The notes under the pieces: generated by a model
Databases searched by the model: none
Told to the model about the DNA's origin: nothing
The model's input: the letters and a program-made list of their open reading frames with translations, nothing else
Shown: piece after piece, positions 24,763-63,931 of the stretch
How positions within the stretch are numbered: position 1 is the first letter of the stretch
How the letters are laid out: the number at the start of each line of letters is the position of its first letter
Assembly (NCBI RefSeq): GCF_001625215.2
Contig: NC_030383.2
Coordinates: forward strand, 63,168,949 to 63,232,948
Direction: 5' to 3'
Length of the DNA stretch: 64,000 bases
Source: Daucus carota subsp. sativus
Taxonomy: Eukaryota; Streptophyta; Magnoliopsida; Apiales; Apiaceae
Program-made: the position numbers and the translations under genes

Positions 24763-24872
24763 TTAGTATATTGGACTAATATTCACGCATTTATATACGA
24801 GAATATATGGTCCACAAGTTAGTGCACAATGTCCAAGAATCTTTATCAAAGTAACACGGCAAGCATGCAGCA

Positions 24873-24880
24873 TATAAATA
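24873..24880 (+). promoter_or_regulatory. TATA box (TATAAATA)
   Basis: It lies 55 bases before the ATG at 24928. The ATG at 24829 lies upstream of it and was rejected as a start. Confidence 0.7.
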
Positions 24881-24927
24881 AGAGTGGGCAGTATGGTATT
24901 GCATTCATAACCCACTTGAGGAGAAAT

Positions 24928-28550: not shown

Positions 28551-29724
28551 TTCAACAATCTTGACAGGTGAGCTTCCAACAACAATTTGCAATGTCACCT
28601 CCCTTTCGGTTCTTGTTTTGTCAAATAATAAATTAAGTGGTGCACTTCCAAACTGTTTCGGGAATCTTGCTGATGGATTGCTTTACATTAATCTTGCTAA
28701 TAATCAGTTTCAAGGAACAATACCAACTACTTTCTCCAGGAGTTGTCCGTTGACATATCTAAACATGGATAATAATGAGTTTGAAGGATTGATGCCCCCA
28801 TCTTTGGCGAACTGTAAGCACTTGAAAATTCTTGATATAGGCAATAATAAAATAGGTGGTACATTTCCGTCATGGATTTATGCACTTGGAGAGCTAGAAG
28901 TTCTTGTCTTGCGATCAAATAAACTCTATGGTACAATAAGTGGAAGGAGCATAGAAGATCCCTTCCCCAAGTTGCGGATTGTGGATCTGTCCAACAATCA
29001 ATTCACAGGCCATTTGCCAATTCAATACTTTAAGAATATGAAATCAAATGATAATTTGTATCGTTATCTGAATTCCACAGGAGAAATATATATCTCTTAT
29101 GAAGCAGCAGTCTCATTAACTGCGAAGGGAACAGAGTATGAAGTAGCAAATAACCTTCATATTTACACAGCCATTGATCTGTCGTGCAACAAATTTCAGG
29201 GAGAAATTCCAAAGGTTACCGGAGAGCTTAGATAGCTTGCATTGCTCAATTTATCGCATAATAGTCTAACGGGACCTATCCCATCATTGCTGAGAAATAT
29301 GAAAGAACTCCAATCTTTAGATTTGTCCTCAAATCAACTGACAGGGGCCATTCCACCTCAGTTAACTGCATTGACATTTCTAAAGGTCTTAAATCTCTCG
29401 AAAAACCATCTCAGTGGAGAGATTCCTCAGGAAGGACAGTTCAGCACATTCAACAATGATTCTTATCTAGGAAACTCCGCGTTATGTGGATTACGTCTGA
29501 CAAAGAAATGTGCAAACACAGCATCACCACCACAAGAAGTCGGAAATGGTGATGAAGATGATGCTGGTGATGAATTGACATGGGAAGCAATTGTGATGGG
29601 ATATGGATGTGGACTGATATGTGGATTATCATCTGCGTACCTTGTTTTCAAACTAGGAAAGCCTTGGTGGTTTGTGAGATATATCGAAGTACTGCAACTG
29701 AAGTTGATGAAAAGATATGCATGA
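28551..29724 (+). pseudogene. RLP exon 2-only copy with nonsense codon
   Basis: It begins with the intron end TCAACAATCTTGACAG and then exon 2 (from 28568), nearly identical to 9142-10328. There is no exon 1 or normal intron before it; the left neighbour is intergenic block sequence. TGG to TAG at 29233-29235 (RWLALLNL context) stops the frame, which otherwise runs on to 29724 through LRRs, acidic spacer, transmembrane helix and KRYA end. It has no start or signal peptide, so no function is expected unless spliced to an upstream exon 1. Confidence 0.85.
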
Positions 29725-34179: not shown

Positions 34180-34347
34180 AATAATCAAAGTGATGAAAAA
34201 TTAAAGTCATCTAATAAGTCCAGAAAAAATATGACCATTAGTATTTTGGAATAATATTCACGCATTTATATACGAGAATATATGGTCCACAAGTTAGTGC
34301 ACAATGTCCAAGAATCTTTATCAAAGTAACACGGCAAGCATGCAGCA

Positions 34348-34355
34348 TATAAATA
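34348..34355 (+). promoter_or_regulatory. TATA box (TATAAATA)
   Basis: It lies 55 bases before the ATG at 34403, in a context identical to that at 24873. Confidence 0.7.
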
Positions 34356-34402
34356 AGAGTGGGCAGTATGGTATTGCATTCATAACCCACTTGAGGAGAA
34401 AT

Positions 34403-39501: not shown

Positions 39502-39546
39502 GAAGAGTGCAGAGTAAAGCCTTTCATAATCCAGTTGAGGAGAAAT

Positions 39547-42500
39547 ATGGCATACTTTGTAAAGCCTTATCACCTTCTTCTCTTTGTTTTCTTTCTCTCA
39601 TCACTTGAATCCATTCTTGCAACAACACGAGAAGGAGAAGCTCTTGTGAAATGGAAGAATAGCCTAGCCCCTTCTTCTTTTCTTGATTCTTGGTCACTCA
39701 CTCATCTCGATAATCTTTGTAACTGGACTGGCATTACTTGTAACTCTGCAGGTTCAGTCTCTGACATTAACCTTTTCAACAAACAACTCACTGGAAAGCT
39801 TTTTGAGTTTGGTTTCACTTCATTTCCAAATCTCAACAATCTCACCCTTGCAGATAACTTCTTCTCTGGTCCAATACCATCAGCCATTGGGAATTTAACA
39901 CAACTTCGGTATCTTGATTTGAGCAATAATTATCTCAATGGTTCCATTCCGTACCAGGTTAGCCATCTTTCAAGATTACACATCTTAAACCTGTCAGAGA
40001 ATGAACTGCAAGCTCCAAATTGGTCCGATTTCTCCCCCATGCCTTGTTTGACCATCCTCGACCTTTATCAAAATAATCTTATGTCGGAATTTCCAGAATT
40101 TATATCTAACTCGCGTAACCTGACATACCTTGACCTTTCATATAACAAGTTCACAGGCGATCTTGTGCGCGAATCAGTATTAACCAATCTAGGTGATCTT
40201 GAAACCCTCTATCTTAATGAAAATTCTTTTAGGGGGCCATTTCCACCAGACATATTCAAACTTTCCAAGTTGAGAGTTCTTGCCCTGTTCAATAATTTTT
40301 TTGAGGGGCCGCTTCCGTCAAATATATTCAAGCTCTCTAAACTAAGATTCCTTTTACTTTGGAGTAATAGTTTTTCAGGCACTCTTTCCAGTGACATAGG
40401 TTTGCTTTCTGAGCTTGAAAACCTAGATCTTCACTCTAATTCTTTTGTGGGGCCGCTTCCGCCAAATATATTCAAGCTGTCTAAACTAAGAACCCTTTTC
40501 CTCTGGGGTAATAACTTCTCAGGTTCTATTTCCAACGACATAGGTTTGCTTTCTGAGCTTGAACACCTATATCTCGACTCCAATTCTTTTGAGGGACCTT
40601 TTCCAACAAATATTTTCAAGCTTTCCAAATTAATACAACTTGGTCTCGCAAACAATACAAATTTATTTGAAGGAAGTATTCCTCCAGGACTGGGGCTCTT
40701 GACTAACCTAGAGGACTTGTCTCTTGCTTACAATAATCTTGGTGGCTATATTCCGTCTTCCTTTGGAAACCTAACACTACTAGTATATCTTAATCTCGCT
40801 CGTAATCAATTGGTTGGAACACTATCAAAGACCATTTCTAATCTCACAAATCTGTGGTTTCTTGATGTACATCATAATAGTCTCTCTGGGAATATTCAGA
40901 GTGACTTCTGGAAAAACTCTACATCACTGCTTTACATTAATTTGGCAGACAATAATTTTTCTGGGAACATTCCTAAGGAATATAATGTTCTTCCAATCCT
41001 GGATCACATCAATTTTAGGGGGAACAACTTTACAGGTATTTTTAATTCCATATTTTTTCCTTCTGTTGTATTTAATTATGCTAACAACTACTGCCTCTGT
41101 TTTCAAATACATATCGTTTGACTTTTTGGCACAAAACTCTATAATAATTCTAACTATAAGGTCAATGAACTTAGAAATATATGTCAAAAAGTCAAACGTC
41201 ATATATTTGAAATTAGAGGGAGTATGGCTTAATGACCTTTTAGCCCTTAAAGTTTGGGTAGAAGTTCCGATGCGGCGTCGAAGTTTAAAAACGTACCTTT
41301 CGACCCTCAAAGTATCTTTGTCGTACCTTTTAACCCTTATGGCGTATACCGGTATATAACGGGTGGGCAAAGTTGACATTTCACACGTGAGGGTTAAATG
41401 GGGCATTAAACATTAAGGGTTAAAAGGAACATTTAATATATTTTAATGTATTATTTAGGGATTAAAAGGAACGAGATGTATACTTTAAGGGTTAAAAGGT
41501 ACGCCCAAACTTCACCCCGAATATGAATTGTCAAGTTTATCCCCCGATTTGTATCGGTATTTTTAAAAAGGGCTAAAAAGTACGACAAAGATACTTTGAG
41601 GGTCGAAATGTACGTTTTTAAACTTTGAGGCCGCATCGGAACTTCCACCCATTCTTCGAGGGCTAAAAGGTCATTAAGCCGAGTATATATTACAGTTTTA
41701 CCAAAGTTTCAACAATCATGACAGGTGAGCTTCCACCAACAATTTGCGATGCAACTTCCCTTTCGATTCTTGATCTGTCAAATAATGGATTAAGTGGTGC
41801 ACTTCCACATTGTTTGGGGAATCTTGCTGATAAATTGATTTCGATTAATCTTGCTAATAATCAGTTTCGAGGACCAATACCAACAAATTTCTCCAAGAGT
41901 TGTCGTCTGACGTATCTTAACATCTATAACAATCACTTTAAAGGATTGGTTCCCCAGTCTTTGGCAAACTGTAAGCACTTGCAAATTCTTGATTTTGGAA
42001 AAAATGAAATAGGTGGAACATTTCCGTCATGGCTTTTTACTCTTGGAGAGCTAGAAGTCCTGGTCCTGCGATCAAACAGATTTTTCGGGAGAATAACTAG
42101 AAGGAGCATACCACACCCCTTTCCCAAGTTGCGGATTTTGGATCTATCCAACAATCAGTTCACCGGCTATCTGCCAATTTCATACTTCAAGAATATGAAA
42201 CCAAATGATAATAATTATGATTATTTCAACAACACAAACGAAGCCTATTACGTTTATCAAGTTTCTATCACATTAAATGTGAAAGGAAGCGAGCATGAAG
42301 TGACAAATATTCTTTATATTTACACGGCCATTGATCTGTCGTGCAACAAATTTGAAGGAAAAGTTCCAGACATTACCGGAGAGCTTAGATGGCTTGCATT
42401 GCTAAATTTATCTCATAATAGTCTTTCGGGGCCTATTCCATCACAACTGGGAAATATGAAAGAGCTCCAGTCTCTAGATTTGTCGTCAAATCAATTGACA

Positions 42501-42881
42501 GGTGTTATTCCAGATCAACTTACTAGTATGACATTTCTTGCTAGTTTGAACCTGTCAGAAAACCATCTTTCTGGGAAAATCCCTCGGAAAGGACAGTTCA
42601 GCACTTTTGGCGAAGAATCTTACTTAGGTAACTCGGCCTTGTGTGGAGTTCCTTTGACAAAGAAATGTATAGACGAAGTGCCCCCTTCACAAGTTGGAAA
42701 TGGCGATGATGAAAATGTTGATGAAGATGATACCGTTGATGAATTCAATTGGAAAGTGATCCTGATGGGATATGCATGTGGATCAATAGGCGGATTGTCT
42801 GCAGGATACATTGTCTTCACAGTTGGAAAGCCTTGGTGGTTTTTGAGGTACATTGAGACACTGCAGCAGAAGTTGATGTGA
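39547..42881 (+). CDS. Intact LRR receptor-like protein, 881 aa (exons 39547-41035, 41725-42881)
   Basis: This is an open, complete RLP and the most diverged one among the left-hand group. It starts MAYFVKPYHLLLFVF (signal peptide to about residue 25); N-cap EGEALVKWKNSL and LCNWTGITC; LRRs; two full 48-residue modules plus one shortened by an LRR near 40255-40310; then GSIPPGLGLL-type repeats. Exon 2 has an island (SITLNVKGSEHEV), LRRs, the LCG..KKC cap, a longer acidic spacer (DDENVDEDDTVDEF), a transmembrane helix (GYACGSIGG) and a tail ending LQQKLM. The intron is 689 bases instead of about 95 because two non-autonomous elements lie in it; both splice sites are unchanged (CAG|GTATTT and TGACAG). 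An ORF reading through exon 1 into the intron to 41121 is an intron-retention artefact. Confidence 0.9.
41091..41222. mobile_element. Stowaway MITE in RLP intron, 132 bp
   Basis: TA-flanked (41089-41090 and 41223-41224). The left end CTGCCTCTGTTTTCAAATA mirrors the right end, read inward CTCCCTCTAATTTCAAATA. The arms continue to GTTTGACTTTTT on both sides. Confidence 0.85.
41226..41680. mobile_element. Long-TIR element in RLP intron, 455 bp
   Basis: Arms of about 110 bases start GGCTTAATGACCTTTTAGCC on both strands. It is flanked by GAGTAT (41220-41225 and 41681-41686), whose left copy overlaps the end of the Stowaway, so it inserted after it. The superfamily is uncertain: the arms look Mutator-like but only six flanking bases are duplicated. 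Confidence 0.8.
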
Positions 42882-46376: not shown

Positions 46377-47766
46377 ATGGATGAAAGTGCTATGTTTGGC
46401 TTGAATGGAGATAATGATGATATGGGGTGGGGTAAGAATTTGGGGGTGGTTGATAATGGTGGTGAAGTTGATGATGGTAAGTGGTTGCAAGAAATTTGTG
46501 ATACTTTGGAGAGAAAATGTGATGAGTATAATCAGAGTTTGTTGGTTAGTGGTGAAGTGAAGGGGTCTGGTGAGGATGATGATGATGATTGTGTGATTTT
46601 AGATGGTGATCCTGACAAAGTTGGTGTCGAAAGTGAGAATGTTGCGGTAGGGGGTGATTCGGATGAGCTTGTTGTTGTTGGGGAGACAGGGCAGGTATAA
46701 TGCTGCATTTGTTGTTTTTTTTGATATTATGTGTTGCTTTTGTGTTTTTTGTTATGTTTTCATATGTTTAGTCCGTTATTTTTTGGAGAATTAAGTAGTC
46801 TGATGAATGTTGATTAATCCAATATATAAGCTGGGCGTTTTTGTTTAATGTGCTTATTATGATTATATTATTTTGTTTGATAATTGAATTGTGTTTAGAT
46901 TGTTAATCCAAAGCCAAGGTCAAAAGACGTAAGGTAACATTGATGTTAATTGATAAAACTAACCTCAGAAAGTAGATTGTTTGAGGCAATAGAGAGTGTG
47001 AGCCTCTATCATGACAATTTAAGAAGTTTATAGTTGAGTCGTTGACTGCATTACTATCAAATGCATAGGGGTATGGAAATGAAAACGGTTAATAACATAT
47101 GGGCATTTAACCTAATAATTTGACAACTCGACACTCGGACTTGTATATGTAAGTTGTAGTAGATGCATACGGTGTTTTAGTAGTTTATTTGTGTACAAAT
47201 TATTTCATTGGGTATTATTTGAAGTGAATAGTATATTGGATTCATGCATGTTCAGACTTTAATATCAACATCTTTCAGATTTTTCTGGATAATGGTTAAT
47301 AAATTCTTTGTTTAATAATGACCGCTTCACTTAATGTCATTTCTCTTCTTTCTTTTTTTAATTATCGGAGTGGATATTTATTTAATTTTTTCTGATTTAT
47401 GTTGCAACTTCCAATATAATTTGTTTGGGTGCTATACTTTGATGGATTATAGGTCGCATGTCGAGACTATCCTCACCCACGAGATCTTTGTGCTAAACTT
47501 CCCTTTACATCTACTCCTCATGAACAATACTGTAACCAGGTAATAATATTTTTTCTCAGAATTAATTATTACACCTCTTTTCAGTGCCGAACGTTCTGCG
47601 TATCTTATTTGACCATTGTCTGTTGCAGTGTCACTGTTATGTTTGTGATGCACCGGCTCCATGTCTCAAATGGGGAACTGGCATATCTGTCAGTGACCAT
47701 TGTCATGCCACTGGGAAGGTGGAATTCTGGAATCAACAAAGCCTAAATTTTTTGAAAAGGCTTTAA
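46377..47766 (+). CDS. RPM1-interacting protein 13 (RIN13)-like gene, 180 aa model (exons 46377-46694, 47453-47539, 47629-47766)
   Basis: Exon 1 starts MDESAMFGLNGDNDD and is acidic, with DDDDCVILDGDPDKVG and an end SDELVVVGETGQ. Exon 2 gives VACRDYPHPRDLCAKLPF .. HEQYCNQ; exon 3 gives CHCYVCDAPAPCLKWGTG .. DHCHATGKVEFW. The cysteine/histidine block (ACRDYPHPR..LCAKFPF..HE..C..CHCYVCD..APC..W) is the hallmark I associate with RIN13, which in Arabidopsis binds the NLR protein RPM1 and promotes resistance; that link is from memory. All junctions are GT..AG and phase 0. After FW the frame adds only NQQSLNFLKRL before a stop, followed by low-complexity DNA, so the 3' end may be truncated. Part of exon 2 and all of exon 3 are inside the tandem duplication that follows. 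Confidence 0.65.
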
Positions 47767-48897
47767 AAAATTTGGAATTTTTTAAAAAAATGAAAAATGT
47801 AAAAATTAAAAAAATCTAAAAATATCTGGAAATTCAAAAAATATACCTAAATTTTTGAAATTAAAAAATTTTAGAATTTTTCCAAATTTTCAGATTTTTT
47901 CAAAGTTTTAAATTTATTTTCAAAATTTTTAGATTTTTTCGATGTTTTTTCATATTTTTTAAAGTATTTTAAAAAAATTCAACTTTATTAAAAAATCGAT
48001 ATTTATATTTTTCTCAAAGTTTTTTTTATTTTTTTTAAAGGATTCTGTTAAAGGCAGCTGATATTTAACGTCGCAGTGACCTATTTGCAAACTTTTATTA
48101 GTTCAGTGAGTTGACTGCAACTTAAATCGAGTTCTGTGATCCGTTTGCAAACTTTTTAAGTTCAGTGACTTAACTGCAAGTTGGCCATGAGTTCAATGAT
48201 CTTTTCGCCTATTAACCCGGACTAAATCTACTAAAATGATAATTATGGACTCACAATGTATATTTTTAATTTATATGTTTAGTTAAAAATTGGTTAATTT
48301 GACTTTCGAAAATCAAAATGAACATGTAAAAGGAGATCGTGGTAATAAGCCCCTCAACGTGTGTAAATGTTAAGTAAAAGGGATATGTTTATTTTTATTT
48401 TAAAAAAGAATTAAAAATATTATTTTACAAATTAAATTATAAAATACTCTCTATATTCCAAATTAGTGAGTTCGTTAATTTTAGGCACACTAATTTAGAT
48501 GATTTAACTGCATAGCTATATAATTTATTTTTAATATTTTTAAAAAACAATTAAAAATAATTTCACGAATAACAGATGATCATTATCTTTTAAATCACAT
48601 GCTGAAAATCGGATGTTGCCCTTATCATTATCACATTTTTAAGTAGTAATGTCTCGAAAATTAAATATTAGATCCAATATGATTTCAAATATCACTTTAT
48701 AATATTCTTTTTTGTCATAATATCACTTAATAATGTTAAATGAGTGACGTTTATATTTTTTTTAAAGTGTTACACAATGAGAAACTCTAAAAAATATAAC
48801 GGTAGATAATGTAGTATCATATCAAAACATTACTTTATCTAACCAGAACATAATATTCCAAGGACAATTTAACTTTTTTTATAATATTCAGAACCTT
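47767..48897. other. Low-complexity and AT-rich spacer
   Basis: 47767-48040 is a run of AAATTTTT-type words. 48060-48215 contains GTTCAGTGA..TGCAA words in several near-repeats (possible end of a non-autonomous element). No gene is seen. Confidence 0.4.
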
Positions 48898-49236
48898 CTT
48901 TTTTTTTTTTGAATAAAAGACAAATTTCATTAATACGAAATGTCATACAGAAAAATCTCCAACAATACATCTCGAGGAGACATAAACACTTTTTGACAAT
49001 TTAAAGAACAGGATAATTTAGCTACTAGATGAGCTACTCCATTCGCTTGTCGTTTAACAAATGAAACTGAATAACATGGCTTCGAATTTAAAATAAGCTT
49101 GCAGGCATTCAAGATGTGACCAACTTCTAAAAGATTTTCCTGAGAGTCATGCAAGGCTTTAATGGCCAGGAGAGAGTCTGATTCAATTTCCACCACCTCA
49201 TGATTTAATGAGCACAACCACGGGAGACCTTCAAAA

Positions 49237-50802
49237 GAGAAAAGGCCCCCAGTAACCTTTTTTTAGTGTCAAATGCCCTAGTTGTCATTATAATAAAAAA
49301 TGGCCCTCATTATCACTCTATAACACTACTTAAACTCACGTTCTGTTTTTCCATCATAAACGGCACACGCAACAGTGTTTCCAGGTTTAATACTTTTTAA
49401 AAAAAGTCTAACGTAACATGAAGTTACGTTCACTGATCTGAGTTTTTTTTTCATATTACTCACATCTTGCTTATTTCCATATAGAAAGAAATTCACTCAC
49501 TAGTCAACGTTATAACAAATTATAATAATATTTAACCAGTGCACCCCAAAGGGTAGCGGCTGCGGTTTCCTACGTTAAAAAGAATATTTAAGCGTTCATA
49601 CATGGGGTTTAGAAAAATTTGTTTATAATTGTAAATTAATTTTCTGAACGTTAGGGTTTAGGATTGAGGGTGTAGGGCCGGTAGGCCCTACTCCCTCGAG
49701 CCTAAAACCTAATTAATGCGAGGCTGAAGGGCCGAAGGCCCTGAAGCCGAGAAATCGGCAGAATAAATAAATTTACAATCGTTAACATTTAGGGTTTAGA
49801 TTTGGGTTGCAGAATGATTAATTCATACTGTAAATTAATTGGCCGAACGTTAGGGTTTAGGATTGAGGGTGTAGGGTCGGTAGGCCCTACTCCCTCGAGC
49901 CTAAACCCTAATTAATGCGAGGCTGAAGGGCCGAAGGCGAGAAACCGGCGGAATAAAAAAATTTACAATCGTTAACATTTAGGGTTTAGGTTTGGGTTGC
50001 AGAATGATGAATTCGTATTGTAAATTAATTGGCCGAACGTTAGGGTTTAGGATTGAGGGTGTAGGGCCGGTAGGCCCTACTCCCTCGAGCCTAAACCCTA
50101 ATTAATGCGAGGCTGAAGGGCCGAAGGCCCTGAAGCCGAGAAACCGGCGGAATAAATAAATTTACAATCGTTAACATTTAGGTTTAGGTTTGGGTTGCCA
50201 TAATGATTAATTCGTACTGTAAATTAATTGGCCAAACGCTAGGTTTTAGGATTGAGGGTGTAGGGCCGGTAGACCCTACTCCCTCGAGCCTAAACCATAA
50301 TTAATGCGAGGCTGAAGGACCTTCAAGCCCTAAACGCTCGAGCCTAAACCCTAATTAACTCGAGGCTCTAGGGCCGTGAGACCCTAAAGCCGAGGAACCG
50401 GAATTAAAATATAAAACAAAATTTTAAATGGCGTTTAAAGTGGCGACAGAATTGTAAGTTGGGTGTTAAGCTAGCAAACGACATTAAGTTACGTTTTAGA
50501 TTTTTAGGTTATTAAAAAATAAAAAAAAAATCAAGAACGTCACATGAAGGCACGTTTTACTTCTGATAAACACACCAGCACGTGACTAAAGTCTCGTTTT
50601 CATATATAACAGCAATTGAAGTGACGTTTTGCTTTTTTTAGTTTAAAATAATAACCCCATAACGTGACCAGGAGTCACGTTTTAGTATAAATCCTAAACG
50701 CTGCTTCAGAACATGTTTTGGAGTGACACCCGGGGCCATTTTACGGGATTGTGACTTTAAGGTCCATATTGTTACTGATGGTGACTCACAGGGCCAACAC
50801 CC
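49237..50802. mobile_element. MULE-like element, 1566 bp, nested in the LINE, copy 1
   Basis: A perfect 9-base duplication CCTTCAAAA (49228-49236 and 50803-50811) interrupts the LINE RNase H codons FEG. The ends are only loosely inverted: GGCCCCCAGTAACC and AAAATGGCCCTCATTATCAC on the left versus GGCCCTGTGAGTCACC and AAAATGGCCCCGGGTGTCAC on the right read inward. There is no protein. The interior carries a minisatellite (49650-50400) and repeated ACGT-centred words. Confidence 0.75.
49650..50400. repeat. Tandem minisatellite, ~195-bp period, telomere-like words, copy 1
   Basis: Units begin GTTAGGGTTTAGGATTGAGG at 49650, 49849 and 50039, with a variant at about 50235. Each has GGGCCGGTAGGCCCTACTCC and CCTAAACCCTAATTAATGCG, so TTTAGGG-type and CCCTAAA-type words face each other within a unit. 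Confidence 0.85.
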
Positions 50803-51602
50803 CCTTCAAAAATAGCGCTTGCTTCGGCTTCAAGGACAGTAGCCACCATGGCTTTACATATTGTTTTACCCATCACAAAAACTCCCTCGCTGTCACGCAG
50901 AACCAAACCCAACGAGACCGAGGCCTCACCGAAACGCACACCTGCATCAACATTTAGTTTGAGAACTCCATCCGTCAGCTTTTTCCACTTCACTCGAGAA
51001 GAAGATGCGGAACTAGAAGTACTACCAACCTGAACAACACGCTTAGCTTTAGCCTCCTTCCAGTCAGAAATAATCTTAGCGCTCCAATCCATAGCTATAG
51101 CAGCTGTAACAACCTTGTGATCCCAAACCTTCTTGTTTCGAAAAAACCAAATTCCCCAAAGAACTCGAGCAATATTAAAAGTTTCATGATCAGGACCTGA
51201 TTCAAACCTAGCAAGTAACCAAGAGGGGGCAAACTCCACCAGAGACAAATCAAAGACCATACCTGAGTATTGCCAACATAACATTGCAAACTGGCAGGTG
51301 AAAAATATGTGAATAAGGTCTTCGTCACCAGAGTTACACATGGGACAGTCAAGAGAAAGATTTACTCCCTTAGATTGTAATCGACTTTTCACAGGCACAT
51401 TATTCCTGCAAAAACGCCATAAAAACACTTTGATCTTAAGAGGAACCTCCAACTGCCAGAGTTTCTTCCACCCACTAGATTGTGTAACAGTGCCAGTGCC
51501 AATATTTTGGGCATGTCAAAACTGGTAACCTGTTTTCACAGAATTTTGGCTGTTAGTAGTCTTTGACCAAGCTAGACGATCCACGGTCGACCTACAGGGA
51601 AC

Positions 51603-53356
51603 ATAAGTTTTTAAAAATTATGTAATTCATTCAATTCCGTATCAGACAATACATCTTATCATCGGTGATAATGAAAATAGTGTAGATGTTTGACCTAGTC
51701 CCTGTTTGACAACCAATATAATAAGAAATAAATTCTTATTTTTCTAAAAAATATATTTTTGTATATAAATGTTAAAGAGATATTTCTTATTTGTTGTTTG
51801 AAAAAAGTAAAGACTTATTTCAGAATAAAAAAAAATTATTGTACATTCTCTTTATTTCTGAAAATAAGTTTGGTCAAATCATCCATAATTCACGTAATTC
51901 AAAAGCCCATTAATTTTTTTTTTTCTTGCTAATTGATCAGCACACGCACACGTTTCCAACTTCCCGCAAAGGGTACAGGAGTACCACCGGAGTACCATCA
52001 CACCGACGCTTTGTTGGGCCCAATAATTGGCTGAAGTTGAACGGGGCTTTCTGCCTCCGCTGGACCCCAGTTGGGAGGACTCTTTCCAAGTCTTCGGAGA
52101 CTCTTTCCCATTGACTCCAACTTTCCAGGGTGTATACAAATTTTTTGAAAGAGGGTGTATACAAATTATTCACGGCCATCAAATCAACCAGCGTAGCTGG
52201 TGAACAAATATTATTGTTTATTATAATTTTATTTAATTTAAATGTGATTATAAGAACATAAGAGGACGTTTGAAAGTGTGGGTCTTATTTCAAACAGTAG
52301 ATTTAAAAAAATATGATTTCAATTGTTATTTAAAATTCTTAAATTTATATTATATTAAAATGTTCTTATTCTAATTAATGAGTCACTATTCGTATTCTCA
52401 AGCATGTTAGTTTGTTAAAATTTAAAATTTCAAATGAAATTAGGCTAAAAGACCATAATATCAAAGCAAAATCTCATTATCCAATATATTGGTGGGCAAA
52501 AATATTAAACCTGGCTATTCATTAATATTGGTTCTTTATTCAAATTATGTCAAATTTATATAAAATTTCGAAAATTATTTATGAATAAGAGTCGGCATTC
52601 ATATATTTATTAAGGATACAAGTGAGAAAATGTTATTAAATTAATATTTTTTTAATATACGTAAGTTTTTTAAAATAAATTTGTAGCGTGGGACGGGAGT
52701 ATTAGACTGATTCTGGCTTGGAGTGAATCAGCCCATAAAGTTTACAGGGTAGATGACCATTCTTAAATCTTAAAGAATCTTACGGTGACAGCTAACTGAA
52801 CGACTCGGTTTCAGAAGTGCTGAAAAGTTTCGACGTAAACTACAATTTGCCTAGCATGTAATTTCCATGCATTTTCTCGTTACTAGTGACAGATAACTTT
52901 TTTGATATTTATATATTTTTAATTATAATAAAGATACTAGTGATTATGGTTAGCTTTTGGAGTACTTTCGGAGTACTTGGAAATTTTCTTTTCGAGAAAG
53001 ACGAGAGTACCTATTTCAATTTTTTACCAAAAATTATAATTGAAAACAACGGACTTTTATACTTATCATAACAATTTTTAACATCTTGTTTAGAAATAAC
53101 CTGTTGTTGTATTATGCAAAAGTAATATCACTAGTTTCTATATTCGTATTCTAATGATAATAAAAACATCTCTAATTCATTAAAACTCTTACATAGAAAA
53201 TGATAAAAAAAAAAAAGAAGATATAAAATAATTTATTAAAAATATATCAAAGTTTTTGCACTCGGTTATAATTATTGTGTAATTTCTTTTTTCAATTCCA
53301 AGATATTGTTATAAGAAAATTTTACATCATATATATATTACAAAAAAAATTAATGT

Positions 53357-53360
<4 letters not shown>
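51603..53360. other. Intergenic, upstream of the chimeric gene
   Basis: 51690-51840 resembles a worn MITE. 51945-52140 has a less AT-rich stretch with GACTCTTTCCAAGTCTTCGGAG, a short form of the recurring element. The rest is AT-rich. Small ORFs on both strands at 51879-52182 are unconvincing. Confidence 0.4.

Positions 53361-53424
<64 letters not shown>
53361..53424. repeat. (TA)32 microsatellite
   Basis: 64 bases of pure TA. The twin in unit 2 (61102-61155) has (TA)27. Confidence 0.95.
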
Positions 53425-53425
<1 letters not shown>

Positions 53426-53486
53426 TTACAATAAAAGTAATAATATATTATATTCTAAATATAGTTAACCACTGCAGTTGGTCGCT

Positions 53487-53494
53487 TATAAATA
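53487..53494 (+). promoter_or_regulatory. TATA box (TATAAATA)
   Basis: It lies 54 bases before the ATG at 53541; the context is identical in the twin gene. Confidence 0.7.
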
Positions 53495-53540
53495 GAAGTG
53501 TGCATTATAGGATGAAACGTACATCAAGCTGAGGAGAAAC

Positions 53541-55509
53541 ATGGCACACTCTGCAAAGCTATATCATCTTCTTTTACTTGTTTTCTTTTCCTCCTTACTT
53601 CCATCCATTCTATTGGCAACAAGACGAGAAGGAGAAGCTCTTGTGAAATGGAAGAATAGCCTAGCCCCGTCTTCTTTTCTTGATTCTTGGTCACTCTCCG
53701 ATCTCGATAATCTTTGCAACTGGACTGGCATTACTTGTAACTCAGCAAGTTCAGTGTCTCAGATAAATCTTTCCCAAAAACAGCTCGATGGAACGCTGTC
53801 CGAATTTGGTTTCACTTCATTTCCGAATCTCGAAAATTTGACCATAAGAGACAACAGCTTGTCCGGGCTAATACCACCAGGCATTGCGAATTTAACACAG
53901 CTTCAATACCTTGATTTAAGCTACAATTATTTCAGTGGTTCCATTCCGTACGAGGTTAGCCATCTTCAGAGATTACGTGTTTTAGACTTGTCGTATAATG
54001 AAATGCAGGCTCCAAAGTGGTCTGACTTCTCTCCCATGCCTTTTATGAGCATCCTCAACCTACGGGCCAATCATCTTGTGTCGAAATTCCCAGAATTTAT
54101 ATCCAATTCTTTTAGCCTGACTTTCCTTGACCTTGGAGACAACAAGTTCACCGCTGATCATCTTGTGCTCGAATCAGAATTTACCAATTTACAAAATCTT
54201 GAAACGCTGTTTCTTGATGGTAATTCTTTTGAGGGGACGTTTCCACCGAATATATTCAGGCTTTCTAAATTAAAACACCTTTCCCTATCTGCTAATAAGT
54301 TTTCAGGTTCTGTGCCGGATGACATAGGGATGCTTCGTGATCTTGAATCCCTTTATCTTGGTAACAATTCTTTCAAAGGGATGCTTCCACAAAATATTTT
54401 CAGACTTCCCAAATTACGGGATCTTTCCCTCTGGGGTAACAATTTTTCAGGTCTTATTTCAGATGATATAAGGATGCTTTCTAACCTGGAATCTCTTGAT
54501 CTTAATGGTAATTCTTTTCAGGGTCCGCTTCCACCAAATTTCTTCAAGCTTTCCAAATTAAGACATCTCGCCTTCTCAAATAATAAAAGAGTATTTAAAG
54601 GAAGTATTCCTCTTGGGTTGGGGCTTTTGACTAACCTTGACTACTTATGTCTTAATTCCAATTATCTCACTGGCTACATTCCATCTGACATTGGAAATCT
54701 AAAGCTACTAGAACATCTTGATCTCAGTTTTAATCAATTGACCGGACCGCTCCCAAAGATCATTTCTAACCTCACTAATCTAACGCGTCTTGGTCTGAAT
54801 GATAATTGGTTTTCCGGCAGTATTCCAAGTGACTTCTTGGAAAACTCTACATTATTATTTTACATTGATCTTTCAAACAATGATCTGTCTGGAAGCATTC
54901 CTAAGGAATTCAACGTTCATCCGACATTGGATTATATCAATTTAAGTGGAAACCGTTTTAGAGGTCTACTTCTCTCTTTAAATTTTTATGTTCATTTTGT
55001 ATATGCTAGTAACCTGATTATTACACTTTTACTGAAGCTTCAACAATTCTAACAGGCAAGCTTCCAGCAACGATTTGCAATGCTACATCCCTTTCGACTC
55101 TTGTTCTGTCAAATAATGAATTCAGCAATGCACTTCCACATTGTTTGGGGAATCTTGCTGATCAACTTCTTTCCATTAATCTTGCTAATAATTTGTTTCG
55201 AGGACCAATACCAACAACTTTCTCTAAGAGTTGTCGGCTGACATATCTAAACATGTACAACAATCACTTTGTGCTAAACCAGGTAATAATATTTTTTCTC
55301 AGAATTAATTATTACACCTCTTTTCAGTACCGAACGTTCTGCGTATCTTATTTGACCATTGTCTGTTACAGTGTCACTGTTATGTTTGTGATGCACCGGC
55401 TCCATGTCTCAAATGGGGAACTGGCATATCTGTCAGTGACCATTGTCATGCCACTGGGAAGGTGGAATTCTGGAATCAACAAAGCCTAAATTTTTTGAAA
55501 AGGCTTTAA
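53541..55509 (+). CDS. Chimeric gene: RLP ectodomain fused to RIN13-like C-terminus (exons 53541-54963, 55056-55282, 55372-55509)
   Basis: Exon 1 is nearly identical to that of the gene at 61272: signal peptide MAHSAKLYHLLLLVF, N-cap and LRRs with two full 48-residue modules. Exon 2 begins KLPATICNATSLS and follows the RLP up to YLNMYNNHF, then passes into RIN13-like sequence (VLNQ) and reaches the original RIN13-like donor at 55282/55283. Splicing to the copied acceptor (55371/55372) adds CHCYVCDAPAPCLKWGTG .. HATGKVEFW and the same ending LNFLKRL. The three exons sum to 1788 bases, an exact multiple of three, with no internal stop (595 residues). It lacks the RLP island, transmembrane helix and tail, so a soluble secreted LRR protein with a short Cys/His-rich end is predicted. 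If the second intron is retained the frame ends at 55489 with a hydrophobic tail. Expression is unknown. Confidence 0.75.
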
Positions 55510-56640
55510 AAAATTTGGAATTTTTCAAAAAAATGAAAAATGTAAAAATTAAAAAAATCTAAAAATATCTGGAAATTCAAAAAATATACCTAAATTTTTG
55601 AAATTAAAAAATTTTAGAATTTTTCCAAATTTTCAGATTTTTTCAAAGTTTTAAATTTATTTTCAAAATTTTTAGATTTTTTCGATGTTTTTTCATATTT
55701 TTTAAAGTATTTTAAAAAAATTCAACTTTATTAAAAAATCGATATTTATATTTTTCTCAAAGTTTTTTTTATTTTTTTTAAAGGATTCTGTTAAAGGCAG
55801 CTGATATTTAACGTCGCAGTGACCTATTTGCAAACTTTTATTAGTTCAGTGAGTTGACTGCAACTTAAATCGAGTTCTGTGATCCGTTTGCAAACTTTTT
55901 AAGTTCAGTGACTTAACTGCAAGTTGGCCATGAGTTCAATGATCTTTTCGCCTATTAACCCGGACTAAATCTACTAAAATGATAATTATGGACTCACAAT
56001 GTATATTTTTAATTTATATGTTTAGTTAAAAATTGGTTAATTTGACTTTCGAAAATCAAAATGAACATGTAAAAGGAGATCGTGGTAATAAGCCCCTCAA
56101 CGTGTGTAAATGTTAAGTAAAAGGGATATGTTTATTTTTATTTTAAAAAAGAATTAAAAATATTATTTTACAAATTAAATTATAAAATACTCTCTATATT
56201 CCAAATTAGTGAGTTCGTTAATTTTAGGCACACTAATTTAGATGATTTAACTGCATAGCTATATAATTTATTTTTAATATTTTTAAAAAACAATTAAAAA
56301 TAATTTCACGAATAACAGATGATCATTATCTTTTAAATCACATGCTGAAAATCGGATGTTGCCCTTATCATTATCACATTTTTAAGTAGTAATGTCTCGA
56401 AAATTAAATATTAGATCCAATATGATTTCAAATATCACTTTATAATATTCTTTTTTGTCATAATATCACTTAATAATGTTAAATGAGTGACGTTTATATT
56501 TTTTTTAAAGTGTTACACAATGAGAAACTCTAAAAAATATAACGGTAGATAATGTAGTATCATATCAAAACATTACTTTATCTAACCAGAACATAATATT
56601 CCAAGGACAATTTAACTTTTTTTATAATATTCAGAACCTT
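55510..56640. other. Low-complexity spacer (copy of 47767-48897)
   Basis: The same AAATTTTT words and GTTCAGTGA near-repeats as in unit 1. No gene is seen. Confidence 0.5.
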
Positions 56641-59346
56641 CTTTTTTTTTTTTGAATAAAAGACAAATTTCATTAATACGAAATGTCATACAGAAAAATC
56701 TCCAACAATACATCTCGAGGAGACATAAACACTTTTTGACAATTTAAAGAACAGGATAATTTAGCTACTAGATGAGCTACTCCATTCGCTTGTCGTTTAA
56801 CAAATGAAACTGAATAACATGGCTTCGAATTTAAAATAAGCTTGCAGGCATTCAAGATGTGACCAACTTCTAAAAGATTTTCCTGAGAGTCATGCAAGGC
56901 TTTAATGGCCAGGAGAGAGTCTGATTCAATTTCCACCACCTCATGATTTAATGAGCACAACCACGGGAGACCTTCAAAAGAGAAAAGGCCCCCAGTAACC
57001 TTTTTTTAGTGTCAAATGCCCTAGTTGTCATTATAATAAAAAATGGCCCTCATTATCACTCTATAACACTACTTAAACTCACGTTCTGTTTTTCCATCAT
57101 AAACGGCACACGCAACAGTGTTTCCAGGTTTAATACTTTTTAAAAAAAGTCTAACGTAACATGAAGTTACGTTCACTGATCTGAGTTTTTTTTTCATATT
57201 ACTCACATCTTGCTTATTTCCATATAGAAAGAAATTCACTCACTAGTCAACGTTATAACAAATTATAATAATATTTAACCAGTGCACCCCAAAGGGTAGC
57301 GGCTGCGGTTTCCTACGTTAAAAAGAATATTTAAGCGTTCATACATGGGGTTTAGAAAAATTTGTTTATAATTGTAAATTAATTTTCTGAACGTTAGGGT
57401 TTAGGATTGAGGGTGTAGGGCCGGTAGGCCCTACTCCCTCGAGCCTAAAACCTAATTAATGCGAGGCTGAAGGGCCGAAGGCCCTGAAGCCGAGAAATCG
57501 GCAGAATAAATAAATTTACAATCGTTAACATTTAGGGTTTAGATTTGGGTTGCAGAATGATTAATTCATACTGTAAATTAATTGGCCGAACGTTAGGGTT
57601 TAGGATTGAGGGTGTAGGGTCGGTAGGCCCTACTCCCTCGAGCCTAAACCCTAATTAATGCGAGGCTGAAGGGCCGAAGGCGAGAAACCGGCGGAATAAA
57701 AAAATTTACAATCGTTAACATTTAGGGTTTAGGTTTGGGTTGCAGAATGATGAATTCGTATTGTAAATTAATTGGCCGAACGTTAGGGTTTAGGATTGAG
57801 GGTGTAGGGCCGGTAGGCCCTACTCCCTCGAGCCTAAACCCTAATTAATGCGAGGCTGAAGGGCCGAAGGCCCTGAAGCCGAGAAACCGGCGGAATAAAT
57901 AAATTTACAATCGTTAACATTTAGGTTTAGGTTTGGGTTGCCATAATGATTAATTCGTACTGTAAATTAATTGGCCAAACGCTAGGTTTTAGGATTGAGG
58001 GTGTAGGGCCGGTAGACCCTACTCCCTCGAGCCTAAACCATAATTAATGCGAGGCTGAAGGACCTTCAAGCCCTAAACGCTCGAGCCTAAACCCTAATTA
58101 ACTCGAGGCTCTAGGGCCGTGAGACCCTAAAGCCGAGGAACCGGAATTAAAATATAAAACAAAATTTTAAATGGCGTTTAAAGTGGCGACAGAATTGTAA
58201 GTTGGGTGTTAAGCTAGCAAACGACATTAAGTTACGTTTTAGATTTTTAGGTTATTAAAAAATAAAAAAAAAAATCAAGAACGTCACATGAAGGCACGTT
58301 TTACTTCTGATAAACACACCAGCACGTGACTAAAGTCTCGTTTTCATATATAACAGCAATTGAAGTGACGTTTTGCTTTTTTTAGTTTAAAATAATAACC
58401 CCATAACGTGACCAGGAGTCACGTTTTAGTATAAATCCTAAACGCTGCTTCAGAACATGTTTTGGAGTGACACCCGGGGCCATTTTACGGGATTGTGACT
58501 TTAAGGTCCATATTGTTACTGATGGTGACTCACAGGGCCAACACCCCCTTCAAAAATAGCGCTTGCTTCGGCTTCAAGGACAGTAGCCACCATGGCTTTA
58601 CATATTGTTTTACCCATCACAAAAACTCCCTCGCTGTCACGCAGAACCAAACCCAACGAGACCGAGGCCTCACCGAAACGCACACCTGCATCAACATTTA
58701 GTTTGAGAACTCCATCCGTCAGCTTTTTCCACTTCACTCGAGAAGAAGATGCGGAACTAGAAGTACTACCAACCTGAACAACACGCTTAGCTTTAGCCTC
58801 CTTCCAGTCAGAAATAATCTTAGCGCTCCAATCCATAGCTATAGCAGCTGTAACAACCTTGTGATCCCAAACCTTCTTGTTTCGAAAAAACCAAATTCCC
58901 CAAAGAACTCGAGCAATATTAAAAGTTTCATGATCAGGACCTGATTCAAACCTAGCAAGTAACCAAGAGGGGGCAAACTCCACCAGAGACAAATCAAAGA
59001 CCATACCTGAGTATTGCCAACATAACATTGCAAACTGGCAGGTGAAAAATATGTGAATAAGGTCTTCGTCACCAGAGTTACACATGGGACAGTCAAGAGA
59101 AAGATTTACTCCCTTAGATTGTAATCGACTTTTCACAGGCACATTATTCCTGCAAAAACGCCATAAAAACACTTTGATCTTAAGAGGAACCTCCAACTGC
59201 CAGAGTTTCTTCCACCCACTAGATTGTGTAACAGTGCCAGTGCCAATATTTTGGGCATGTCAAAACTGGTAACCTGTTTTCACAGAATTTTGGCTGTTAG
59301 TAGTCTTTGACCAAGCTAGACGATCCACGGTCGACCTACAGGGAAC
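56641..59346 (-). mobile_element. L1-type LINE remnant, copy 2
   Basis: It is copied with the unit: zinc-knuckle and RNase H pieces at 59196-58516 and 56960-56673 on the minus strand are identical in protein to copy 1. It carries the same nested insertion and oligo(A) tail (56642-56653). Confidence 0.85.
56980..58546. mobile_element. MULE-like element nested in the LINE, copy 2
   Basis: It is flanked by CCTTCAAAA at 56971-56979 and 58547-58555. The content is the same as 49237-50802, one base longer in an A run, with the minisatellite at about 57393-58144. Confidence 0.75.
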
Positions 59347-61097
59347 ATAAGTTTTTAAAAATTATGTAATTCATTCAATTCCGTATCAGACAATACATCT
59401 TATCATCGGTGATAATGAAAATAGTGTAGATGTTTGACCTAGTCCCTGTTTGACAACCAATATAATAAGAAATAAATTCTTATTTTTCTAAAAAATATAT
59501 TTTTGTATATAAATGTTAAAGAGATATTTCTTATTTGTTGTTTGAAAAAAGTAAAGACTTATTTCAGAATAAAAAAAAATTATTGTACATTCTCTTTATT
59601 TCTGAAAATAAGTTTGGTCAAATCATCCATAATTCACGTAATTCAAAAGCCCATTAATTTTTTTTTTCTTGCTAATTGATCAGCACACGCACACGTTTCC
59701 AACTTCCCGCAAAGGGTACAGGAGTACCACCGGAGTACCATCACACCGACGCTTTGTTGGGCCCAATAATTGGCTGAAGTTGAACGGGGCTTTCTGCCTC
59801 CGCTGGACCCCAGTTGGGAGGACTCTTTCCAAGTCTTCGGAGACTCTTTCCCATTGACTCCAACTTTCCAGGGTGTATACAAATTTTTTGAAAGAGGGTG
59901 TATACAAATTATTCACGGCCATCAAATCAACCAGCGTAGCTGGTGAACAAATATTATTGTTTATTATAATTTTATTTAATTTAAATGTGATTATAAGAAC
60001 ATAAGAGGACGTTTGAAAGTGTGGGTCTTATTTCAAACAGTAGATTTAAAAAAATATGATTTCAATTGTTATTTAAAATTCTTAAATTTATATTATATTA
60101 AAATGTTCTTATTCTAATTAATGAGTCACTATTCGTATTCTCAAGCATGTTAGTTTGTTAAAATTTAAAATTTCAAATGAAATTAGGCTAAAAGACCATA
60201 ATATCAAAGCAAAATCTCATTATCCAATATATTGGTGGGCAAAAATATTAAACCTGGCTATTCATTAATATTGGTTCTTTATTCAAATTATGTCAAATTT
60301 ATATAAAATTTCGAAAATTATTTATGAATAAGAGTCGGCATTCATATATTTATTAAGGATACAAGTGAGAAAATGTTATTAAATTAATATTTTTTTAATA
60401 TACGTAAGTTTTTTAAAATAAATTTGTAGCGTGGGACGGGAGTATTAGACTGATTCTGGCTTGGAGTGAATCAGCCCATAAAGTTTACAGGGTAGATGAC
60501 CATTCTTAAATCTTAAAGAATCTTACGGTGACAGCTAACTGAACGACTCGGTTTCAGAAGTGCTGAAAAGTTTCGACGTAAACTACAATTTGCCTAGCAT
60601 GTAATTTCCATGCATTTTCTCGTTACTAGTGACAGATAACTTTTTTGATATTTATATATTTTTAATTATAATAAAGATACTAGTGATTATGGTTAGCTTT
60701 TGGAGTACTTTCGGAGTACTTGGAAATTTTCTTTTCGAGAAAGACGAGAGTACCTATTTCAATTTTTTACCAAAAATTATAATTGAAAACAACGGACTTT
60801 TATACTTATCATAACAATTTTTAACATCTTGTTTAGAAATAACCTGTTGTTGTATTATGCAAAAGTAATATCACTAGTTTCTATATTCGTATTCTAATGA
60901 TAATAAAAACATCTCTAATTCATTAAAACTCTTACATAGAAAATGATAAAAAAAAAAGAAGATATAAAATAATTTATTAAAAATATATCAAAGTTTTTGC
61001 ACTCGGTTATAATTATTGTGTAATTTCTTTTTTCAATTCCAAGATATTGTTATAAGAAAATTTTACATCATATATATATTACAAAAAAAATTAATGT

Positions 61098-61101
<4 letters not shown>
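59347..61101. other. Intergenic, upstream of the last RLP gene
   Basis: It is the copy of 51603-53360, including the GACTCTTTCCAAGTCTTCGGAG element at about 59820. No gene is seen. Confidence 0.5.

Positions 61102-61155
<54 letters not shown>
61102..61155. repeat. (TA)27 microsatellite
   Basis: 54 bases of pure TA, five repeats shorter than its twin at 53361. Confidence 0.95.
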
Positions 61156-61156
<1 letters not shown>

Positions 61157-61217
61157 TTACAATAAAAGTAATAATATATTATATTCTAAATATAGTTAAC
61201 CACTGCAGTTGGTCGCT

Positions 61218-61225
61218 TATAAATA
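61218..61225 (+). promoter_or_regulatory. TATA box (TATAAATA)
   Basis: It lies 54 bases before the ATG at 61272. Confidence 0.7.
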
Positions 61226-61271
61226 GAAGTGTGCATTATAGGATGAAACGTACATCAAGCTGAGGAGAAAC

Positions 61272-63931
61272 ATGGCACACTCTGCAAAGCTATATCATCT
61301 TCTTTTACTTGTTTTCTTTTCCTCCTTACTTCCATCCATTCTATTGGCAACAAGACGAGAAGGAGAAGCTCTTGTGAAATGGAAGAATAGCCTAGCCCCG
61401 TCTTCTTTTCTTGATTCTTGGTCACTCTCCGATCTCGATAATCTTTGCAACTGGACTGGCATTACTTGTAACTCTGCAAGTTCAGTGTCTCAGATAAATC
61501 TTTCCCAAAAACAGCTCGATGGAACGCTGTCCGAATTTGGTTTCACTTCATTTCCGAATCTCGAAAATTTGACTATAAGAGACAACAGCTTCTCCGGGCT
61601 AATACCACCAGGCATTGCGAATTTAACACAGCTTCAATACCTTGATTTAAGCTACAATTATTTCAGTGGTTCCATTCCGTACGAGGTTAGCCATCTTCAG
61701 AGATTACGTGTTTTAGACTTGTCGTATAATGAAATGCAGGCTCCAAAGTGGTCTGACTTCTCTCCCATGCCTTTTATGAGCATCCTCAACCTACGGGCCA
61801 ATCATCTTGTGTCGAAATTCCCAGAATTTATATCCAATTCTTTTAGCCTGACTTTCCTTGACCTTGGAGACAACAAGTTCACCGCTGATCATCTTGTGCT
61901 CGAATCAGAATTTACCAATTTGCAAAATCTTGAAACGCTGTTTCTTGATGGTAATTCTTTTGAGGGGACGTTTCCACCGAATATATTCAGGCTTTCTAAA
62001 TTAAAATACCTTTCCCTATCTGCTAATAAGTTTTCAGGTTCTGTGCCGGATGACATAGGGATGCTTCGTGATCTTGAATCCCTTTATCTTGGTAACAATT
62101 CTTTCAAAGGGATGCTTCCACAAAATATTTTCAGACTTCCCAAATTACGGGATCTTTCCCTCTGGGGTAACAATTTTTCAGGTCTTATTTCAGATGATAT
62201 AAGGATGCTTTCTAACCTGGAATCTCTTGATCTTAATGGTAATTCTTTTCAGGGTCCGCTTCCACCAAATTTCTTCAAGCTTTCCAAATTAAGACATCTC
62301 GCCCTCTCAAATAATAAAAGAGTATTTAAAGGAAGTATTCCTCTTGGGTTGGGGCTTTTGACTAACCTTGACTACTTATGTCTTAATTCCAATTATCTCA
62401 CCGGCTACATTCCATCTGACATTGGAAATCTAAAGCTACTAGAACATCTTGATCTCAGTTTTAATCAATTGACCGGACCGCTCCCAAAGATCATTTCTAA
62501 CCTCACTAATCTAACGCGTCTTGGTCTGAATGATAATTGGTTTTCCGGCAGTATTCCAAGTGACTTCTTGGAAAACTCTACATTATTATTTTACATTGAT
62601 CTTTCAAACAATGATCTGTCTGGAAGCATTCCTAAGGAATTCAACGTTCATCCGACATTGGATTATATCAATTTAAGTGGAAACCGTTTTAGAGGTCTAC
62701 TTCTCTCTTTAAATTTTTATGTTCATTTTGTATATGCTAGTAACCTGATTATTACACTTTTACTGAAGCTTCAACAATTCTAACAGGCAAGCTTCCAGCA
62801 ACGATTTGCAATGCTACATCCCTTTCGACTCTTGTTCTGTCAAATAATGAATTCAGCAATGCACTTCCACATTGTTTGGGGAATCTTGCTGATCAACTTC
62901 TTTCCATTAATCTTGCTAATAATTTGTTTCGAGGACCAATACCAACAACTTTCTCTAAGAGTTGCCGGCTGACATATCTAAACATGTACAACAATCACTT
63001 TGAAGGGTTGTTGCCGCAATCTCTGGCAAACTGTAAGCACCTACAAATTCTTGATATTGGAAACAATGAAATAGGTGGTAAATTCCCGTCATGGCTGTTT
63101 ACTCTTGGAGAGCTGGAAGTCCTAGTCTTGCGATCAAATAGATTCCACGGTCCAGTCAATGGAACAAGCTCAGCAAATTTATTCCCCAAGTTGCGGATTG
63201 TTGATCTCTCCAACAATCAATTTACAGGCGATTTACCAATTCAGTATTTTAAGAATATGAAACCAACAGATAACCACTATAGTTATTTTTATACAGAAAG
63301 TGGTTTTTACTATCATCAAGCATCGATCTCATTAACTGTGAAAGGAAGAGAGTATGAAGTGAAAAAGATCCTTCATATTTATACAGCCATAGATGTGTCA
63401 TGCAACAAATTTCAGGGAGAAATTCCCGAGGTTATTGGAGAACTTAAATGGCTTGCATTGCTCAATCTATCACATAATAGTCTTATTGGACCTATCCCAT
63501 CACAGCTCGGAAATATGGAATCACTTTTATCTCTAGATTTGTCTTCAAATCATTTGACAGGGGGTATTCCCGATCAGTTGATTAGGTTGACATTTCTAGA
63601 GGTCTTGAACCTCTCGGAAAATCATCTGACAGGGCCTATCCCCCAAAAAGGACAGTTCAGCACATTCAACAAGGATTCTTACCTAGGTAACTTTGCCTTG
63701 TGTGGATTACCTTTAACTAATAACTGTACACACACTGTGTCACCACCACAAGAAGGCGGAACTGGTGACAATGATGCCTATGATGAACCCGATTGGGAAG
63801 TGATCCTCATGGGATATGGATGTGGACTAATATGCGGATTATTGTCCACTGGGTACGTTGTCTTCACATTCAGAAAGCCTCAGTGGTTTATGAGATACAC
63901 TGAAAGCGTGCAACAGAAGTTGATGAGATGA
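61272..63931 (+). CDS. Intact LRR receptor-like protein, 855 aa (exons 61272-62694, 62787-63931)
   Basis: This is the undisturbed parent of the chimera: exon 1 differs from 53541-54963 at only a few residues (for example F/L in RDNSFSG, Y/H in SKLKYLSL). Signal peptide MAHSAKLYHLLLLVF; N-cap EGEALVKWKNSL and LCNWTGITC; LRRs with two full 48-residue modules (IFRLSKL, IFRLPKL types); 92-base phase-1 intron with donor GAG|GTCTAC. Exon 2 has the island (SISLTVKGREYEV), LRRs, C-cap LCG..NNC, an acidic spacer (GDNDAYDEPDWE), a transmembrane helix GYGCGLICGLLSTGYVVF and a tail ending VQQKLMR. This is an RLP with no kinase. It is the most diverged subgroup in the window together with its chimeric twin, and shares the island style of the gene at 39547. 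Confidence 0.92.

Follow-up and report, generated by a model that had tools for sequence, protein, structure and literature searches.

Organization of the locus

The stretch of carrot DNA analyzed here (64,000 nucleotides, referred to as the window) holds a cluster of genes for LRR receptor-like proteins (RLPs). Comparison of the window with itself identified two near-identical head-to-tail units, 47534-55271 and 55277-63002, which are 99.677% identical over 7739 aligned columns and differ by 11 SNVs and four homopolymer or microsatellite indels (1, 1, 2 and 10 nt). This identity is far above that expected by chance, and the locus is a tandem duplication of approximately 7.7 kb. The first unit starts within exon 2 of an upstream gene (the partner), and the second ends within exon 2 of an RLP gene that lies in the same orientation. 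Because the remainder of each parent gene is found outside the units, both parents are whole and open, and a fusion of the 5' part of the RLP gene with the 3' part of the partner is found at the seam. The parents and the units are as follows.

46377-47766, + strand: upstream parent (partner), intact, 180 amino acids, with exons 46377-46695, 47454-47539 and 47629-47766
47534-55271, + strand: duplication unit 1, containing the 3' part of the partner, a spacer and the 5' part of the RLP gene (self-comparison)
55277-63002, + strand: duplication unit 2 (self-comparison)
61272-63931, + strand: downstream parent RLP, intact and open, with exons 61272-62694 and 62787-63931

Based on reading of its sequence, the downstream parent has an island-like region, a membrane helix and a short tail. 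Its ORF at 61272-62783, which consists of exon 1 plus 29 residues read from the intron, was compared with PDB sequences, and plant LRR receptor ectodomains were the top matches, with GSO1 first (best 60 of 177). The sequence upstream of the RLP gene was duplicated along with it; this sequence contains no SNVs between 47784 and 53743 but does contain four small indels, and the 10-nt indel sits in an AT run approximately 170 bp before the RLP start codon.

Structure of the predicted fusion gene

The gene predicted at the seam is composed of three exons (53541-54963, 55056-55282 and 55372-55509), which together make 1788 nt and encode 595 amino acids with no internal stop.

53541-54963, + strand: exon 1 of the chimera, equivalent to RLP exon 1, encoding the signal-peptide-like N-terminus, LRRNT and LRRs (translation, Pfam)
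54964-55055, + strand: RLP intron, GT..AG (read by eye)
55056-55282, + strand: exon 2 of the chimera, consisting of RLP exon 2 to 55271, a filler, and the last bases of partner exon 2
55283-55371, + strand: partner intron 2, 89 nt, GT..AG, with two SNVs relative to the parent copy
55372-55509, + strand: exon 3 of the chimera, equivalent to partner exon 3 and identical to the parent copy, encoding the Cys/His-rich tail and the native stop

The first-pass annotation had proposed an open three-exon product of 596 codons, stop included, that reuses the splice sites of both parents. Joining the exons reproduced its coordinates, frame and length, and both introns are bounded by GT and AG. The boundaries of the RLP intron are, by eye, identical in six of the eight RLP loci compared, including the fusion and its parent; the other two are without the donor side of the intron, the locus at 28477 being without its 5' part and that at 41634 carrying other sequence. 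The predicted frame thus continues through the seam without a stop, and the splice sites it needs are available. To what extent such an outcome depends on chance can be judged from simulated breaks, which were placed in exon 2 of each gene with no filler and with the terminal 60 nt of RLP exon 2 excluded. Among 93,310 such pairs of breaks, 32.5% gave an in-frame read to the partner stop and 67.7% reached exon 3 in any frame. With a chance of about one in three for an in-frame outcome, the open frame is unsurprising and constitutes weak evidence of function.

Retention of intron 2 (89 nt) also leaves the frame open. The tail encoded by the intron-retained form contains a strongly hydrophobic stretch with a 19-residue hydropathy of 2.0, and intron retention could give an alternative, membrane-anchorable product. 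T-rich introns, if translated, may often yield hydrophobic stretches.

Predicted properties of the fusion protein

Residues 1-546 of the fusion are derived from the RLP and residues 549-595 are in the frame of the partner. Over the shared part, the fusion differs from the intact parent RLP by three amino acids. The N-terminus is hydrophobic (KD 2.1) and signal-peptide-like, as judged by hydropathy, and Pfam analysis of the fusion gave matches to LRRNT_2 (5.3e-09) and to LRR families. The fusion thus shares with RLPs a putative signal peptide, the LRRNT and LRRs, and as a spliced product lacks the island, C-terminal cap, membrane helix and short cytoplasmic tail. Reading of the sequences indicates that the island-like region of the parent, its C-terminal cap and its C-terminal cysteine pair are absent from the fusion, and the best 19-residue hydropathy is 0.67 for the spliced fusion tail as compared to 1.54 for the parent tail. 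Translation, Pfam matches, hydropathy and sequence reading thus agree with the earlier proposal of an LRR ectodomain without island, membrane helix or tail.

Such a protein, being without cap, membrane helix and tail, is predicted to be unable to signal as an RLP. The tail contributes five cysteines, and these together with the exposed last LRR make it most likely that the fusion would either be subject to ER quality control or be an inert secreted protein. A functional alternative is that of a soluble decoy, in which the secreted fusion binds the ligand or co-receptor of the parent RLP without signaling and thereby tunes or traps it. Contact of plant RLPs with ligand and co-receptor often involves the C-terminal part of the protein. 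Much of the LRR region is retained in the fusion, in a sequence almost the same as that of the intact parent, along with the hydrophobic, signal-peptide-like N-terminus, but the fusion has lost the C-terminal LRRs together with the island, the cap and the membrane helix; in addition, it is very young, and two of its three derived coding changes are nonsynonymous. Although a decoy RLP, LeEix1, has been reported (PMC7238418), we consider a functional decoy very unlikely here, and a decoy or competitor role for the fusion is best described as possible but unsupported. Still less probable is the most specific version of this idea: that the newly arisen fusion is expressed and secreted as an LRR protein whose truncated RLP ectodomain is capped by a Cys/His-rich segment from a putatively immunity-linked intracellular protein, and that it would serve its intact parent as a soluble competitor or extracellular integrated bait, gained in one repair event.

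The partner gene and its Cys/His-rich tail

The upstream parent (46377-47766) is a candidate RIN13-like gene (RPM1-interacting protein 13), the label given to it in the first-pass annotation. The end of its coding region lies in sequence very rich in A+T (47740-48060), and its C-terminus may be shortened relative to RIN13-like proteins. The 180-amino acid parent matched no Pfam-A family at E-values up to 10. Comparison with PDB sequences yielded no matches to the parent, comparison of a 76-amino acid segment with viral contigs yielded six pattern stretches with none confirmed, and comparison of the parent with prokaryote contigs yielded 29 pattern stretches with none confirmed; none of these is a plant collection, and a miss in them says little. 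The residue string CHCYVCD did not occur in the literature text searched. RIN13 itself is described as an RPM1 interactor that promotes nuclear localization of PAD4 (PMC13326511) and as enhancing the resistance function of RPM1 (PMC8910659). For the partner segment to have an immunity role within the fusion, that role would need to be exerted in the secretory pathway, as opposed to the nuclear effect of RIN13 upon PAD4.

Endonuclease VII (PF02945) was considered as an identity for the tail and rejected. The 47-amino acid segment scored 15.3 bits (E 0.019), below the curated cut-off of 23.6 bits, and the E-value in the whole fusion was 0.22. Endonuclease VII was the sole Pfam match of the 47-amino acid segment and accounted for three of its four PHROG matches (phrog_2914, E 0.024); the 76-amino acid segment had no match in Pfam and, among the PHROGs, matched one endonuclease VII family (E 0.046) and one family of unknown function. 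Shuffled sequences in which the cysteines and histidines were held fixed reached E-values as low as 0.0044 with another family, and endonuclease VII was matched by none of the ten. The assignment was not accepted because the scores are weak and the shuffles equaled or bettered the E-values with other families. The structure predicted for exon 3 alone had a mean pLDDT of 48.2 and a pTM of 0.15 and is uninformative.

Sequence of the seam

Identity to the RLP extends through 55271 and is followed by the filler TGCTA (55272-55276), after which partner sequence is found again from 55277 (equivalent to 47534). The filler matches partner exon 2 at 47491-47495, and with its flanks forms a longer patch.

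55267-55279, + strand: junction patch CTTTGTGCTAAAC, equal to partner exon 2 at 47486-47498 (sequence comparison)

The single other + strand occurrence of CTTTGTGCTAAAC in the window is this segment of the partner (47486-47498). After the patch, 38 nt of the partner (47499-47536) are skipped. Microhomologies flank the patch on both sides, these being CTTTG on the left (5 bp, shared with the RLP) and AAC on the right (3 bp, shared with the resumed partner). The frame of the patch differs from the partner's own frame, and the 38-nt jump returns the partner's frame. With the seam flanks held fixed and a random 5-mer as filler, the probability of obtaining a 13-mer match on the same strand no more than 100 bp from one or other parental break is 0.0012. 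As assembled, the sequence diagnostic of the seam is CACTTTGTGCTAAACCAGGTAATAAT. The initial proposal that the breakpoints lie in exon 2 of both genes stands, with the refinement that the TGCTA filler lies between the RLP and partner sequences.

A review treats templated insertions as a smoking gun of polymerase-theta activity and puts them at as much as about 35% in A. thaliana (PMC12426944). The scar found here resembles polymerase-theta end joining as described there, with priming by a short microhomology, copying from nearby and re-annealing; it differs in that the enzyme is deduced from the scar only, and we accordingly refer to the scar as putatively polymerase-theta-like. In such a repair event, the RLP end would have paired via CTTTG with the partner exon and copied 8 nt, and the copied strand would then have been released and re-paired via AAC 38 nt onward.

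The same scar could in principle have been produced in two steps, by a plain out-of-frame join at the 5-bp microhomology followed later by a 38-bp deletion between AAC repeats that restored the frame. Both microhomologies needed for this are present, the patch has a frame unlike that of the partner, and the exon-3 frame of the initial fusion would also have been open, for 38 codons. A two-step origin, however, calls for two independent events within 13 bp, whereas a single template-switching repair accounts for both, and we regard it as unlikely. The templated patch, the two microhomologies and the 38-nt jump also disfavor a bare assembly misjoin, which would in addition require that a deletion of separate origin happened to fall no more than 13 bp from the join; the seam is free of N runs.

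Divergence between the two units

The SNVs that distinguish the two units are not evenly distributed.

53744-55526, + strand: interval on the seam side that contains all 11 inter-unit SNVs (unit alignment)

This interval takes in the fusion gene and the 17 bp after it, so that the SNVs occupy only the outer margins of the homologous sequence and are all no more than about 1.5 kb from the seam. The SNV-rich part has diverged by about 0.6%, and the remaining 5.95 kb (47784-53743) contains no SNVs. A uniform spread of SNVs gives a probability of 1e-7 for 53744-55526, an interval picked after looking, and an inner SNV-free stretch as long was found in none of 200,000 random draws. Eight of the SNVs are located in RLP exons, two in the partner intron and one after the stop, the three in the partner part having no outgroup within the window. 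Among the positions at which the fusion is distinct from the parent RLP are 53744 (A in the fusion), 53861 (G), 54573 (T) and 55234 (T).

We used the RLP paralogues to polarize the eight coding sites: three are derived in the fusion, three are derived in the parent, and two are unclear. The six clear sites have five to seven aligned rows each, not all of which are independent loci; one of six rows disagrees at 53843 and at 53861, and some of the rows at 54573 come from alignments that an internal repeat has displaced. The derived changes in the fusion are two nonsynonymous and one synonymous, compared with none and three, respectively, in the parent. This pattern may fit relaxed constraint on the fusion, but the contrast between the two sides falls well short of significance (Fisher p = 0.4). 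In the RLP coding part that both copies share, dN is lower than dS (0.0024 against 0.0135), and five of the eight coding changes are synonymous as compared to 23% expected for random changes (P = 0.018). The low dN relative to dS suggests that at least one of the lineages evolved under constraint, with fusion and parent inseparable in this respect.

The position of the SNVs raises the question of whether they arose by error-prone synthesis at the seam during the duplication, and the proximity of all 11 to the seam is in keeping with such synthesis. A mutation shower should, however, be one-sided, and the finding of derived states on both the fusion and the parent side disfavors it as the main cause; the excess of synonymous changes also runs counter to random error. 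We consider this source for the cluster improbable. An assembly artefact of either kind, be it a misjoin or two haplotypes placed end to end, would mean that the fusion is absent from the plant. The units are near-identical, their indels are confined to homopolymers and microsatellites, and patchy heterozygosity could underlie patchy SNVs, all of which would be in keeping with an artefact. Haplotype differences would nevertheless be expected in the 5.95-kb middle as well as at the ends, and taken together with the scar at the seam this leaves an artefact with little probability.

The absence of SNVs from the middle 5.95 kb would suggest that the event is young. The SNV pattern is not accounted for by a single simple age and needs either haplotype exchange at the outer ends or homogenization of the middle. 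In the former case, the outer ends of the units would pair with unduplicated haplotypes and crossovers there would import other alleles, with the seam-side copies keeping the founding alleles; the result would be old, constrained differences at the ends and a young middle without SNVs. An older duplication with a gene-converted middle would, we infer, look alike. Given an Arabidopsis-like mutation rate of 7e-9 per site per generation, and provided that the middle has not been homogenized, the data allow an age no greater than some tens of thousands of generations. Dating of the duplication by average identity was rejected because the SNVs are not uniform, and their clustering at the outer ends warns against dating such duplications in this way.

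Origin of the fusion and comparison with known chimeras

We favor, with a probability of about three in four, an origin by recent tandem duplication and theta-like template-switching repair, giving a young, nearly neutral, open-frame chimera under a duplicated RLP promoter that is probably inert. This reading starts from features of the assembled sequence: the structure of the locus, its repair scar, a frame that stays open and two surviving parents. A duplication of about 7.7 kb in the RLP cluster would have had its breaks in exon 2 of the RLP gene and exon 2 of the co-oriented upstream gene. The fusion would then be transcribed from the duplicated RLP promoter and spliced at the parental sites, and the resulting 595-amino acid LRR protein would be expected to enter the secretory pathway.

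The birth of chimeras at duplication seams is a known route to new genes, and the carrot fusion is a well-preserved, legible further example. In a study of D. yakuba, tandem duplications that ignore gene boundaries gave 76 chimeras in 15 lines, and for 24 of the 76 expression was elevated across half or more of the exonic sequence in a duplicated segment (PMC5460883). Like the carrot fusion, the chimeras described there join the 5' end of one gene to the 3' end of a neighbor, with the parents kept and the promoter of the 5' parent duplicated. The carrot fusion is unlike them in having a plant immune-receptor-type 5' parent and a base-level scar, and in being known from its sequence alone. Chimeric genes formed by unequal exchange have been documented in plant resistance clusters (PMC3017797); these resemble the fusion in that a clustered family of immune-type genes acquires new structures, but join paralogues, whereas the fusion joins unrelated genes by a non-homologous join. 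The resemblance to LeEix1 lies in an RLP-type ectodomain that may be able to compete with a signaling paralogue (PMC7238418). A fusion of an RLP with RIN13 was not described in the literature titles among the matches listed. LeEix1 is a full-length RLP, in contrast to the fusion, which is without membrane helix and tail.

The locus thus offers a base-resolved case of chimeric gene birth in a plant RLP cluster, with a legible scar and with intact parents as controls, and its low divergence allows the founder structure to be told from later change. If expressed, the fusion would illustrate how a signaling-type receptor gene can give rise to a soluble competitor in one step; if silent, it would serve as a good case of an open-frame fusion meaning nothing by itself.

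Other features of the window

Of the other RLP copies in the window, the paralogues at 24829-26530 and 34304-36377 each appear as a pair of overlapping ORFs that are in different frames. The start peptide found in the overlap is the same, which would fit a single old frameshift common to the two paralogues. The copy at 28447-29724 is without its 5' part, and a stop near 29235 divides it into two ORFs of the same frame; the RLP at 39535-42881 has other sequence in the intron region before 41718. Each duplication unit also carries, on the minus strand, a remnant of a zf-RVT sequence (zinc-binding reverse-transcriptase domain) at 50772-51452 and 58516-59196; the first copy matched the domain with an E-value of 5.4e-15, and the translation of the second is identical. 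A direct-repeat block is present in each unit as well (49630-50318 and 57373-58061), with an offset of about 199 bp and repeats that are 92-94% alike.
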